33,299 nt of DNA from NCBI GenBank assembly GCA_900317425.1, contig ONGR01000021.1:1-33299 (forward strand), in the 5' to 3' direction. Source of the stretch: an uncultured Eubacteriales bacterium. Its GTDB lineage: Bacteria > Bacillota > Clostridia > Oscillospirales > Oscillospiraceae. A program made the position numbers and the translations under genes. Positions 26,594 to 30,252 of the stretch are shown piece after piece (the first letter of the stretch is position 1; each line of letters begins with the position of its first letter). Under the pieces are notes generated by a model. The model had not been told where the DNA came from, made no database searches, and was given only the letters and a program-made list of their open reading frames with translations.

Positions 26594-27505
26594 TTATTTG
26601 GAAGGTGTGATAGGCTGGCTGACGTCCACCGTGCCGAAGGTACCGCGGATCTCGCCATCCAGCAGGATCTGCACCCTGCTCACGCCGTTGATGGAGCAGA
26701 GGGACCGGACGATGCTCTGGATCAGTGCCCCCTGCGCCGCCGCATCCGCCGGCAGCAGAGCCTCGTCCGCGCCGGGCAGGTTGAGATAGCACACGTTGTT
26801 CTCCGTCCGCAGACCCAGCACGGCAAAGTCCGCCGGCAGCAGCGGCTGCAGATCGGCGTTCTCCGGGCCGCTCAGCAGGGCGTCCATCACCACCGCCACC
26901 CGGCTCTGCCCCTCATACAGGGTCAGGAGCCGGTCCTCGCCGGTAAGCTGGCCGTCCGCCCCGGCGAAGTACAGCCAGGCCGTGAAGGATCGGACCACAT
27001 CGTCCATGCTGCTCATCAGCACGTCGCTGGCCAGGAAAGTGCTGTCGCTGCGATAGGCCAGTTCCCGGCCGTTTACCAGAATATGCACCGTGTAGATCTG
27101 CCGGATCTGGGTCAGCGTCAGGGTGACGCAATAGTCGGCGACGGTCAGGTCCATGCCGGACAGCTGTCCGTAGGCGGCGGAGAAATCCACCGTGGCCCGG
27201 CCACCGTCCACGGTGCAGCTCAACAGCTGTGTGCCCTTGGGGATGGGGCTGACGAAGTTCGGCTCCTCGCAGCCGCCCAGCAGCAGCTCCAGCGCCGCCC
27301 GGGCCTGCTCCTCCACGGAAAGGTCCGTTTGTCCGGTCCAATCCACCGAGGCTGTGGCCAGGATATCGCCGCCGCGGACGCTCTCAGGCTCTGCGGCGTA
27401 GTACACCGCCAGGGTCACGCCCTCCTGGGCTTTCTGGGCCGCCGCGCAGCCGGAGACGCTCCACAGCATAACTGCCGCCAGCAGGGTGATCATCAATCGT
27501 TTCAC
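26594..27505 (-). CDS. GerMN-domain lipoprotein
   Basis: A 303-residue secreted lipoprotein. The signal peptide ends in V-S-G-C (lipid anchor Cys20). Two GerMN-type repeats follow: about residues 30-150 (V-Y-Y-A-A-E ... G-T-Q-L-L-S-C-T-V-D-G-G-R-A-T-V-D-F-S-A-A-Y) and about 190-295 (L-T-L-Y-E-G ... V-C-Y-L-N-L-P ... V-Q-I-L-L-D-G). GerMN domains occur in the spore protein GerM and in actinobacterial LpqB. It starts with GTG 27505, overlapping the kinase stop (GTGA), so it is co-translated with the two-component system and may be its outer sensor or envelope partner. Confidence 0.85.
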   Translation of the reverse strand: MKRLMITLLAAVMLWSVSGCAAAQKAQEGVTLAVYYAAEPESVRGGDILATASVDWTGQTDLSVEEQARAALELLLGGCEEPNFVSPIPKGTQLLSCTVDGGRATVDFSAAYGQLSGMDLTVADYCVTLTLTQIRQIYTVHILVNGRELAYRSDSTFLASDVLMSSMDDVVRSFTAWLYFAGADGQLTGEDRLLTLYEGQSRVAVVMDALLSGPENADLQPLLPADFAVLGLRTENNVCYLNLPGADEALLPADAAAQGALIQSIVRSLCSINGVSRVQILLDGEIRGTFGTVDVSQPITPSK

Positions 27506-28929
27506 GATACCTCACCTCCCTCCGCCAGAGGCAGGCGCACGGTAAACACCGTACCCACGCCCGCCGGGCGGTGATGGGCCGACACGGTGCCGCCACGGCG
27601 CACCACCGTGTCCCGCACGATGGCGAGGCCCAGGCCGGTACCGCCCACCTGGCGGGAGCGATCCTTGTCCACCCGGTAAAACCGCTCGAAGATATGGTCC
27701 AGATCCTCGTCGGGGATGCCGATGCCGTTGTCCTCCACGTCGATGACCACGGCCCGATCCTCCACGCGCACCGCCGTGTGGACAAAGCCCATCCGGCCGG
27801 AGTACTTGATGCCGTTTTCAATGAGATTGTACAGGATCTGATGGATGTCGTCCTCCGTGGCCATGACCACGGCCTTCTCGTCCGCCTCGCAGGAGAGGGA
27901 AACCTCCTTCTCCCGGGCTACCATGCCCAGCATGCGCGCCACGCGCTCCAGCACCGGCGCCACGCAGACCGGCTGGGCCTGGTCCAGATTGTCGCTGTCC
28001 AGCCGGGTCAGGCGCAGCAGATCCTCGCTGATGCGGCTCAGCCGCTCCGCCTCCTGGCCGATATCGCTGACAAATTCCCGCACGGTGGCGCCGTCCATGC
28101 CGTCGGTCTGCAGGATGGAGTCCGTCAGCAGGCGGATGCCGGCCAGAGGCGTCTTCAGCTCGTGGCTGGCGTCGGACACGAAGCGGCGGCGGGCGTTCTC
28201 CGTGGTCTGGAGCCGGTCGGTGAGGCTGTTGAACTCCGCGGCGATCTGGGCGATCTCATCGCTGCCCCGGACGTTGGCCCGGTGGCTGTAGGCACCCTCC
28301 CGCACGTTGCGGATGGCCTGGAGCAGATCGCTGATCCGCCGGGTAAAGAGCCGTGACAGCACGAAGCTCAGCAGCAGGACCAGCACCCCCACCATGAGGG
28401 AGATGGCCATCAGGTTCTTCTGGAAGCTCTTCAGCAGCGCCGCCTGCTCGGCGTCGTATTCATAGGCGTAGATGGCCCCCACGATCTGGTTGCGGTAGAC
28501 CACCGGGGCGGCGGCGCGGCTCAAAAACGCCTCGCTGTCATATCGGCAGTAGAAGGCGTCGTTGCCCGCCAGGGCCTGGGCCACCTCCGTATAGAACACA
28601 AAAAGGCCCTTGGCGCTGCCCGTCTCGCGGCTGTCGTAGAGGATGCGTCCGGCGGTATCGGTGATGAGGATGCGGCTGACGCCGGTCTCCCGCAGCTCGC
28701 CCAGGGCCTGGGCAACGTTCTCCTCCGTCAGCTCCGCCAGGCCGGACAGGGACGACTCGATGACCTTCACGCTGCTGGTCATGGAGGCCTCCTTGGACCG
28801 GAACACCAGGTTCTGCGACACCAGCAGCGGATAGGAGTTCAGCAGCACCAGCACCGCCAGGATGATGACGATGTAGCTCATGCCGAACTTAAATTGCAGG
28901 CTCGTTCTCCCCCTGAAAATAGTAACCAA
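27502..28929 (-). CDS. Sensor histidine kinase
   Basis: A kinase of up to 475 residues. It has a transmembrane segment at about 17-38, an extracellular sensor region with a Cache/PAS-like look to about 170, a second membrane segment at about 173-195 and a HAMP domain. The HisKA phospho-acceptor is His256 (S-D-A-S-H-E-L-K-T-P), and the ATPase domain has the N box (N-L-I-E-N-G-I-K-Y-S), D-N-G-I-G-I-P and G-G-T-G-L-G-L. It pairs with the response regulator upstream. The start is uncertain. TTG 28929 is the longest but has GGGGAG directly adjoining it. ATG 28881, or an unusual CTG at 28899 placed well behind GGGGGAG, are alternatives. Confidence 0.92.
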   Translation of the reverse strand: MVTIFRGRTSLQFKFGMSYIVIILAVLVLLNSYPLLVSQNLVFRSKEASMTSSVKVIESSLSGLAELTEENVAQALGELRETGVSRILITDTAGRILYDSRETGSAKGLFVFYTEVAQALAGNDAFYCRYDSEAFLSRAAAPVVYRNQIVGAIYAYEYDAEQAALLKSFQKNLMAISLMVGVLVLLLSFVLSRLFTRRISDLLQAIRNVREGAYSHRANVRGSDEIAQIAAEFNSLTDRLQTTENARRRFVSDASHELKTPLAGIRLLTDSILQTDGMDGATVREFVSDIGQEAERLSRISEDLLRLTRLDSDNLDQAQPVCVAPVLERVARMLGMVAREKEVSLSCEADEKAVVMATEDDIHQILYNLIENGIKYSGRMGFVHTAVRVEDRAVVIDVEDNGIGIPDEDLDHIFERFYRVDKDRSRQVGGTGLGLAIVRDTVVRRGGTVSAHHRPAGVGTVFTVRLPLAEGGEVS

Positions 28930-28942
28930 CTCCCCACTTTGT
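28886..28942. repeat. 57-bp direct repeat, kinase-side copy
   Basis: Identical to 29163-29219 except for one C/G difference. This copy contains the kinase start region. It also still reads like the response regulator C-terminus (G-V-G-Y-Y-F-Q-G-E-N) in another frame, although the regulator gene no longer reaches it. Confidence 0.95.
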
Positions 28943-29162
28943 CACACTTCAAAAAATGGCAAACCATTTTTTGAGATGGCTTGCAGCCCACTCCGCGCAC
29001 TCACTTGCGGGAGACGCTCGCACACTTCGTGGTCTGATCAGTGTTTTTTCTGACGCGCATGTCGCCAGAAAAAACGATTGCATATCTTCGCGCCGTGCGC
29101 GGCGCGAACTCTGCGAGGCTCACCTCACAATCCGACGAAATCAGGCGGACACGCTTGACCTC
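28943..29162. mobile_element. 220-bp hairpin-rich insert between the duplicated regulator/kinase junction
   Basis: The insert separates the regulator and kinase genes and is flanked by the 57-bp direct repeat. It holds three perfect hairpins: 28950-28973 (10-bp stem), 29043-29075 (10-bp stem, 13-base loop) and 29087-29108 (8-bp stem). The first, read on the minus strand, ends in six T and resembles a terminator. No terminal inverted repeats are seen. An open frame of about 50 codons on the minus strand has no good start. Its nature as a small non-autonomous element is inferred from the flanking duplication. Confidence 0.55.
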
Positions 29163-29219
29163 AACTTAAATTGCAGGCTGGTTCTCCCCCTGAAAATAGT
29201 AACCAACTCCCCACTTTGT
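29163..29219. repeat. 57-bp direct repeat, response-regulator-side copy
   Basis: Holds the last 17 codons and the stop of the response regulator and three further bases. Its partner is 277 bp away at 28886-28942. Confidence 0.95.
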
Positions 29220-29867
29220 GATGATATACACCGGCTCGGCCGGGTTTGGCTCCAGTTTCTCCCGCAGGCGGCGGACGTGGACGTCCACCGTGCGGTAATC
29301 CCCCACGTAGGAGTAGCCCCACACCAGGTTCATCAGGTTCTCCCGACTGTAGACCCGCCGGGGATTCTTCATCAGCAGTTCGATGAGGTCGTACTCCTTG
29401 GCAGTCAGATCGATGATCCGGCCGTCCCGGATGGCCACCCGCTGTTCTGTATCCAGGCTCAGGGAGCCCACCGTCAGCAGCGCGGCGCTGCGCCGCTGCT
29501 GACGGGCGGTCCCAGCCCGGCGCAGCAGGGCCCGGATCCGGGCCTTCAGTTCCATGATGTTAAAGGGCTTGGTCACGTAGTCGTCAGCGCCGCAGGCAAA
29601 GCCCATCAGCTTGTCCGCGTCCTCGCTGCGGGCCGTCAGCATGATCACCGGCACGTTGGAGAACTCCCGGATCTTCATGCAGGCCTCGCTGCCGGAGAGG
29701 ACCGGCATCATCAGATCCAGAATGATGAGGTCGAAATTCCCCGTCCGGGCCAGCTCCACGGCGGCGGCTCCGTCGTAAGCCACCTCCACCTGATAGCCCT
29801 CGTTCTCCAGATTGAACCGGATTCCCTTGACCAGCAGCTTCTCGTCGTCAACCACCAGTATTTTCAT
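29166..29867 (-). CDS. OmpR/PhoB-family response regulator
   Basis: A 233-residue response regulator. The receiver domain has D-D-E at residues 7-9, phospho-acceptor Asp51 (I-I-L-D-L-M-M-P), the conserved Thr and Lys (M-L-T-A-R, T-K-P-F). A linker of about 15 residues follows, then a winged-helix DNA-binding domain ending in D-V-H-V-R-R-L-R-E-K-L and W-G-V-G-Y-Y-F. ATG 29867 lies inside the end of the comEA-like gene behind GGAGAGGAG. A perfect 10-bp inverted repeat (29473-29503) lies within the linker-coding DNA. The gene ends inside a 57-bp repeat shared with the kinase start. Confidence 0.95.
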   Translation of the reverse strand: MKILVVDDEKLLVKGIRFNLENEGYQVEVAYDGAAAVELARTGNFDLIILDLMMPVLSGSEACMKIREFSNVPVIMLTARSEDADKLMGFACGADDYVTKPFNIMELKARIRALLRRAGTARQQRRSAALLTVGSLSLDTEQRVAIRDGRIIDLTAKEYDLIELLMKNPRRVYSRENLMNLVWGYSYVGDYRTVDVHVRRLREKLEPNPAEPVYIITKWGVGYYFQGENQPAI

Positions 29868-30252
29868 CTGCCGTCATCTCCTCTCCCTCATTCTGCACGG
29901 TGATATAGGGGGCAATAGCCTGCACCGTCTTCTCGCCGATACCGTTTACCCGTGTCAGGTCCGCCGCGTCGGCAAAGGGGCCGTTGGCCTCCCGGTCCGC
30001 CACGATCCGCTCCGCCAGCGCCGGGCCGATACCCGGCAGCTGCTGCAGCGTCTCGGCATCCGCCGTGTTGATATCGATCCGCGTCTCCCGGGGCGGTGTC
30101 TGCTCTGTCCCCTGCCGGGCCGTCACCGTGTAGCGGCCCTGGTCGGGGCCCGTTACCGTCACAAGGTGGAGCACCGTCACCAACGCCATAAAAACCAGCG
30201 TCACCGCCAACAGGAGAACCTCGCTTTTTGTTATTTTTACCGGTCTCCTCAC
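29848..30252 (-). CDS. ComEA-like helix-hairpin-helix protein
   Basis: A 134-residue protein with one N-terminal membrane segment (about residues 10-33). The C-terminal helix-hairpin-helix pair has the pattern I-D-I-N-T-A-D-A-E-T-L-Q-Q-L-P-G-I-G-P-A-L-A (about 58-79) and V-N-G-I-G-E-K-T-V. It resembles the DNA-binding half of the competence protein ComEA, which binds incoming DNA at the outer face of the membrane. No comEB or comEC gene is adjacent, so a role in DNA uptake is only possible. The start is GTG 30252, with a weak GGTGGGG upstream. It overlaps the response regulator by 20 bp and heads that operon. Confidence 0.85.
   Translation of the reverse strand: MRRPVKITKSEVLLLAVTLVFMALVTVLHLVTVTGPDQGRYTVTARQGTEQTPPRETRIDINTADAETLQQLPGIGPALAERIVADREANGPFADAADLTRVNGIGEKTVQAIAPYITVQNEGEEMTADENTGG

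Follow-up and report, generated by a model that had tools for sequence, protein, structure and literature searches.

How can a 220-bp insert come to lie between a response regulator gene and a sensor histidine kinase gene and leave both of them complete? This question is raised by one locus in the window, i.e., the whole 33,299-nt stretch analysed here, which belongs to a 1.87-Mb draft genome of 39 contigs (96% complete). The locus has the following parts:

27502..28929, minus strand: sensor histidine kinase, frame intact (open reading frames and NCBIfam)
28886..28942, minus strand: target duplication, kinase-side copy, 57 bp, holding the kinase start region (repeat search and empty-site comparison)
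28943..29162, minus strand: inserted element, 220 bp, MITE-like, without a gene of its own (absent in 20 of 21 relatives; core repeated in the genome)
29163..29219, minus strand: target duplication, regulator-side copy, 57 bp, holding the last codons and stop of the regulator (repeat search and empty-site comparison)
29166..29867, minus strand: response regulator of the winged-helix OmpR/PhoB type, frame intact (open reading frames and NCBIfam)

The insertion and its empty site

A repeat search of the window confirmed an earlier note on this DNA, which had described a 57-bp direct repeat with one mismatch and a 277-bp period around a 220-bp insert between regulator and kinase. The two copies (28886–28942 and 29163–29219; spacing 277) are identical at 56 of 57 nt and reach a direct-repeat score of 54, the highest score among 1,986 mismatched flank pairs being 16. 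The open reading frames bear out that the right copy encodes the end and stop of the regulator and that the kinase start is read from the left copy in another frame; both frames are intact, in agreement with the claim that each gene kept a complete copy after the insertion. The single mismatch is at position 40 of the repeat (G in the kinase copy, C in the regulator copy), where the change of the kinase codon from ACC to ACG is synonymous. The nearest named relatives of the kinase are 76–91% identical over most of its length and come from metagenome assemblies labelled Ruminococcaceae or Oscillospiraceae, which suggests an uncultured host from this group. The 220-bp insert is too short for a transposase and has no gene of its own; a plus-strand frame within it (28956–29165) had no NCBIfam match. 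Elsewhere in the window, at 29848–30252, a ComEA-like helix-hairpin-helix gene overlaps with its end the start of the response regulator gene.

Comparison of the same locus in close relatives, as proposed in the earlier note, found the empty site with overlapping genes and a single 57-bp copy: in 20 of 21 distinct relatives, the regulator-side and kinase-side matches overlap by exactly 57 bp and the insert is absent. This set includes 18 of 19 same-genus loci resolved as empty and two further named relatives (L181 and L184); the one relative without a resolved site is L016, in which the kinase start did not align, and three contigs (L182, L183, and L185) that repeat L011, L010, and L024 were left out of the count. 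The closest relative (L181) is 92% identical on both sides of the site. The mismatch position is C in 20/20 distinct relatives (23/23 with the repeated contigs included). Because 20 of 21 relatives present exactly the predicted arrangement, the ancestor can be taken to have had overlapping genes with one 57-bp copy, and the simplest reading is that the insertion would be younger than the split from the relatives compared. The target at this locus would thus have been the 57-bp regulator/kinase overlap, with a complete copy kept by each gene because the whole overlap was duplicated. An assembly artefact has next to no probability: the window does come from a draft assembly, but the same architecture is found in many genomes, including G018 (3 contigs, 97% complete), and the two 57-bp copies differ by one base with both gene frames intact.

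A dispersed element family, often flanked by duplicated hairpins

The insert belongs to a dispersed multi-copy family, and the membership of the window copy is firm. Its core has 21 other DNA matches in its own genome, where a covariance model (R1) identified 25 copies at E 0.001; R1 copies are present in 31 of 32 same-genus genomes (own genome included) and, at E 1e-5, in 26 of the 245 genomes sampled across the order, representing 15 of 127 genera, an order-wide tally that is a lower bound given stricter filters and 12 candidates scored per genome. G018 contains 76 copies, with duplications in 9 of the 14 examined. The element is best explained as a putative non-autonomous transposable element of approximately 200 bp.

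Long flanking duplications recur across this family. We compared 160 bases upstream with 200 bases downstream of each copy, for 100 of the 103 R1 matches; L109 (a weak antisense overlap, 21.8 bits) and L086 and L038 (short flanks) were left out. Mismatched flank pairs served as control for the repeat score, random flank segments for pairing, and shuffled 5′ ends for the match of both element ends. A direct-repeat score of at least 14 was reached by 46 of the 100 copies, as compared to 0.1 expected from mismatched flank pairs, which rules out chance repeats; among 40 further copies, 10 reached this score and nine were accepted as duplications, L223 being set aside for its spacers of 136 and 159 nt. 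No duplication above threshold was found in 54/100 and 30/40 copies. Pooled, 55 of 140 copies tested carry long flanking duplications, a fraction that refers to the copies with the best model scores rather than to a random sample. Other copies flanked by long, locus-specific direct repeats, which the earlier note had suggested looking for, are thus found; besides the window copy, four in the window's genome are so flanked, L042 (50 bp, exact), L035 (38 bp), L037 (33 bp), and L030 (21 bp). A T-box-leader-like match (59.1 bits, E 9.4e-11; gathering score of 93 not reached) is located shortly after the element copy of L030, at 1239–1463.

A single template-switch or repair event at the locus, with no transposition, was among the explanations that the earlier note offered. 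The window target is a poor hairpin and the 5′ end of the window copy is degraded, as such an event would allow; we nevertheless regard it as very unlikely, because 55 of 140 copies carry such duplications and the insert core belongs to a multi-copy family whose other copies have the same kind of duplication.

Most of the duplicated stretches are complete hairpins, and many have A-rich and T-rich edges as in an intrinsic terminator; judged by their form, these hairpins probably end transcription. End-to-end pairing is at least 0.6 in 41 of 46 duplications (12.5% of random flank segments), at least 0.8 in 34 (1.1%), and at least 0.9 in 27 (0.27% of 1,840 random flank segments), and five duplications fall below 0.6. 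A typical copy reads as duplication, approximately 14 bases (e.g., CAGCTTGTCAAAAA), core from AGCCTCGCAGAG, a terminal hairpin (P4) ending GACAGTCTC or similar, and again the duplication. These boundaries are mostly fixed, with a 5′ spacer of 13–15 in 34/46 copies and a 3′ spacer of 34–36 in 36/46. For one copy in genome G010, two of five relatives (L235 and L237) present one unoccupied hairpin near the downstream gene, which is only suggestive as the upstream side did not align; the other three (L233, L234, and L236) have no comparable hairpin in the stretch folded.

These results bear on two further claims. The 57-bp duplication had been considered far longer than those of known small transposons (2–14 bp); long duplications occur at other sites as well, and IS1182-type loci duplicate hairpins of 20–35 bp (10 of 27 loci). 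An element that spares host genes by duplicating an overlapping junction had also been proposed; the insertion and the wholeness of both genes stand, but the family is not specialised on junctions, its usual target being a terminator-like hairpin (34/46 pair at 80% or more).

A conserved RNA-like fold

The window copy contains the following structures:

28974..29120, minus strand: structured core P1-P2-P3, R1 match of 164.8 bits; this copy is among the 13 from which R1 was built
29087..29108, minus strand: hairpin P1, 9 bp with a 4-nt loop (alignment and covariation)
29043..29075, minus strand: hairpin P2, 13 bp with a 7-nt loop (alignment and covariation)
28984..29036, minus strand: hairpin P3, long and two-part, with conserved G-U pairs and a GA/GA internal loop (alignment and covariation)
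28949..28974, minus strand: terminal hairpin P4, sequence variable between copies, its last base shared with the core match

The test of covariation covered the three-hairpin core P1–P3, in which covariation is strong. Among the 13 own-genome seed copies, both partners changed in 22 of 37 pairs, 96.4% of cells are paired, and the covariation score is 0.446, as compared to 0.164 when shuffled; four of five covariation measures exceeded all 500 shuffles, and the fifth, the number of further pair types, was matched by 56/500 shuffles in the seed copies and by 9/500 in a set of 40 copies. The covariation score is 0.449 (0.158 shuffled) in 98 distinct copies, with 97.2% paired, and 0.617 (0.197 shuffled) in the second set of 40, both alignments being fitted to R1 and hence biased towards the model. 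Read on the minus strand, the pairs include 381 G-U cells versus 15 A-C cells (29 versus 15 when consensus G-U pairs are left out), and because G-U cells exceed A-C cells on that strand, the minus strand is suggested to be the RNA strand. Both compensatory changes and strand-specific G-U pairs, as expected of a structured RNA, are therefore present. The insert folds at −91.9 kcal/mol, as compared to −72.1 ± 5.3 kcal/mol for plain shuffles. The fold may act as single-stranded DNA instead of RNA; it could be selfish cargo, belong to the transposition machinery in the form of single-stranded DNA, or affect mRNA ends in cis.

Rfam 15 gave no gathering-level match in the window's element, and a search at E up to 5 of eight loci with copies gave no match in the core; two chance-level matches (E 1.2 and 4.2) start in L035, at its last hairpin or immediately after it.

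Two details of the fold vary between copies. One position of P3 (columns 206/322 of alignment A3) holds a non-standard pair in 61 of 98 distinct copies, whereas the rest of that stem covaries; among the 13 seed copies, those that deviate have A-G or G-A there. A second hairpin module of approximately 55 nt, ending AAGTGCCCTTGGGGT or similar, is found inside P1 or P2 of six element copies, four in the window's genome and two in G040 (L034 at 1217, L041 at 1226, L045 at 1175, L046 at 1086, L214 at 782, and L215 at 759); this module could be either a tiny mobile element targeting hairpin loops or a modular RNA extension.

Element ends, IS1182-type transposons, and known systems

Searches for IS1182-family transposases gave matches in 6 of 32 same-genus genomes, two of them above the curated cut-off (G010 and G042), and in 18 of 245 genomes of the order (E 1e-40, G010 protein as query). 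Ten of 27 IS1182-type loci have flanking direct repeats of 20–35 bp, which by inspection are all hairpins and adjoin inverted repeats that read CAGNCTGTCRAAAAA or nearly so; the other 17, including L128 of G010, have no direct repeat of at least 20 bp, several being truncated or distant. The element shares these ends: among the 55 copies with duplications, 36 5′ ends and 40 3′ ends match the IS-end consensus at 13 or more of 15 positions, a level reached by none of 1,100 shuffles of 5′ ends, with a boundary shift of a few bases allowed for real and shuffled ends alike. In G010, the element 5′ end CAGCTTGTCAAAAA and the left end of the genome's own IS1182 locus (CAGCTTGTCAAAGA) are one base apart, and both follow a hairpin. 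The family thus has terminal inverted repeats in common with an autonomous IS, and hairpin duplications, i.e., the same kind of target and duplication, are found in both. A search of nine IS1182-type loci found the RNA core in none of them, so simple internal deletion of those IS does not account for the element.

Contig C1 of genome G230 carries six IS1182-type copies with identical scores (L144, L159, L165, L167, L169, and L170); five of them have different duplicated hairpins of 20–30 bp, which makes them a clean natural data set for target choice.

The shared ends also bear on movement by reverse transcription of a structured RNA, as in a bacterial SINE-like element, with staggered nicks giving rise to long variable duplications. 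Duplications of long and variable length, the RNA-like structured core, and a 5′ end more variable than the 3′ end in own-genome copies would all fit such a route. However, both ends are fixed in most duplication-bearing copies (34/46 and 36/46), and an inverted repeat of the IS1182-type kind is found at both, making this route very improbable.

No transposase source was found in two genomes with copies: in the window's genome, searches gave neither an IS1182 transposase nor a match to the inverted-repeat pattern, and in G018 no IS1182 transposase was detected despite the 76 copies. In the window's genome, the transposase may have been lost or may lie in a missing stretch; in G018, its absence would require loss, a missing stretch, or another enzyme. 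These absences would be accounted for by another transposase family, e.g., IS1634, whose members make long variable target duplications, as the mover; the shared ends and hairpin targets nevertheless point to IS1182-type elements, and we give mobilisation by such another family very little probability.

We consider it highly probable that the element, the window copy included, is non-autonomous and MITE-like and that IS1182-type transposases which target hairpins move it in trans. It would consist of terminal inverted repeats of IS1182 type (CAGNCTGTCRAAAAA) around the three-hairpin core and would end in the fourth hairpin. The mover, judging by the ends, is probably a DDE transposase of IS1182 type supplied in trans; this enzyme would join the element ends to both target strands on opposite sides of a usually hairpin-forming sequence, normally a terminator-like hairpin of approximately 20–40 bp, and gap repair would then duplicate everything between the joining points. 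The hairpin would be left whole on both sides because gap repair copies everything between; the choice of cut sites would presumably follow the same model. A broader and more tentative reading, to which we give slightly less than an even chance, is that a structured RNA outside Rfam spreads as cargo of IS1182 ends across an order whose members are mostly uncultured, with the fold under selection, drifting ends, whole-hairpin duplication, and sparing of the host, the element being selfish or domesticated. On this tentative reading, an insertion would cost the host little because upstream genes keep their terminator and overlapping genes stay intact.

The window copy is atypical: its target is a poor palindrome, its 5′ end is degraded, and its genome has no detected IS1182 transposase. 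Remnants of the ends can be recognised as follows:

28943..28956, plus strand: remnant of the 3′ terminal inverted repeat, CACACTTCAAAAAA, compare CAGACTGTCAAAAAA (0/500 shuffles as good)
29148..29155, minus strand: possible remnant of the 5′ terminal inverted repeat, AGCGTGTC, compare CAGCGTGTCAAAAA of G018 copies (seven bases in from the duplication)

The 3′ end differs from CAGACTGTCAAAAAA by one gap and one mismatch (10/15 ungapped). Beside the duplication, the 5′ end has no clean inverted repeat (6/15); AGCGTGTC was equalled by 2/500 shuffles against CAGCGTGTCAAAAA, a comparison chosen after the fact, and by 145/500 against CAGACTGTCAAAAAA. The 57-bp target, the longest found, lacks the hairpin nature of most others, with end-to-end pairing of 0.40 versus a random mean of 0.49; the site also folds weakly in relatives, its folding energy in L182 being within one standard deviation of shuffles, though L181 gives an imperfect end-to-end hairpin. 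Given these features, we only infer that the window copy was inserted by the same route as the family.

Group IIC introns are structured RNAs that insert next to terminators; they are not known to duplicate their target, their RNA is far larger, and they encode a reverse transcriptase. Unlike these introns, the element described here duplicates its target and has a core without an Rfam match. Palindromic targets were reportedly treated by Siguier et al. in 2015. According to the available text of two reports (PMC4923244, PMC5678879), the IS1182-family elements IS1272 and TnSha1 choose hairpins as insertion sites, in many cases terminators; all or part of the hairpin is lost in the process, and the target is not duplicated. 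Non-hairpin targets do occur in this family, since 3 of 13 older IS1272 copies lack an inverted-repeat target in the accessible account (PMC5678879). In the open text of the respective papers, every insertion site of ISCbo5 except one is at a gene-end hairpin (PMC3098183), and ISPse1 has an entry of 4 bp in a column of apparent duplications (PMC3281130), indicating that the IS1182 family is not uniform. In the part of their paper that was available, Wan et al. (2017) drew an alternative pathway, by which a stem-loop is duplicated whole when joining takes place at its 5′ feet (PMC5678879); as far as that model is set out there, elements of the present family behave as it predicts.

In the literature searched, mainly openly readable papers and their accessible portions, we recognised no description of whole-hairpin duplication by a MITE or of this RNA. 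Dozens of cases of whole-hairpin target duplication are reported here from natural genomes, whereas the accessible literature draws it only as a model for IS1182-type elements, and a covarying RNA family is tied to this hairpin-duplicating route. Two questions become testable, namely by what means hairpins are read by a DDE transposase and for what reason an element without genes retains so elaborate an RNA fold, and host-sparing duplication could explain the high copy number of such elements in compact genomes. If the cargo reading set out above is true, its members would use the stem-loop-duplicating pathway drawn for IS1272, an alternative to the replacement seen there, to go by the available text.

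As far as the available descriptions go, the element resembles the IS1182 family (NF033551; IS1272, ISCbo5) in its short inverted repeats and hairpin targets, often gene-end terminators, and resembles the IS1182-type members of the order in its similar ends and in whole hairpins duplicated at 10 of 27 loci; it differs in that IS1182-family members encode a transposase of approximately 470–510 aa and that the core is absent from the nine loci searched. IS1272, in its accessible description, removes or replaces the hairpin without duplication, whereas the element duplicates it. Like the structured multi-copy motifs (mobile/repeat sequence candidates, MRSC) of a survey of ncRNAs in 50 genomes, suspected in the available text to be selfish elements (PMC11109978), the family combines structure with many copies and could be among the 250 MRSC counted there; MRSC-65-2, with UYCCGG repeats, is set apart from the element by its published description only. 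Prokaryotic MITEs (PMC10969869; Haloquadratum, PMC3119063), as portrayed in the text available, are likewise short, gene-less, and multi-copy, with IS-like inverted repeats, target duplications, and an interior otherwise unrelated to the IS; unlike them, the element duplicates whole hairpins, and its core shows strong compensatory change across many genera. There is precedent, at least in the accessible parts of these sources, for MITEs that have hardly more than their ends in common with the moving IS (PMC3119063; review, PMC10969869). Given this precedent and the behaviour drawn by Wan et al., the element is best described as a MITE-like companion of IS1182-type transposons that target hairpins; what sets it apart is its conserved RNA fold and the duplication of whole hairpins.
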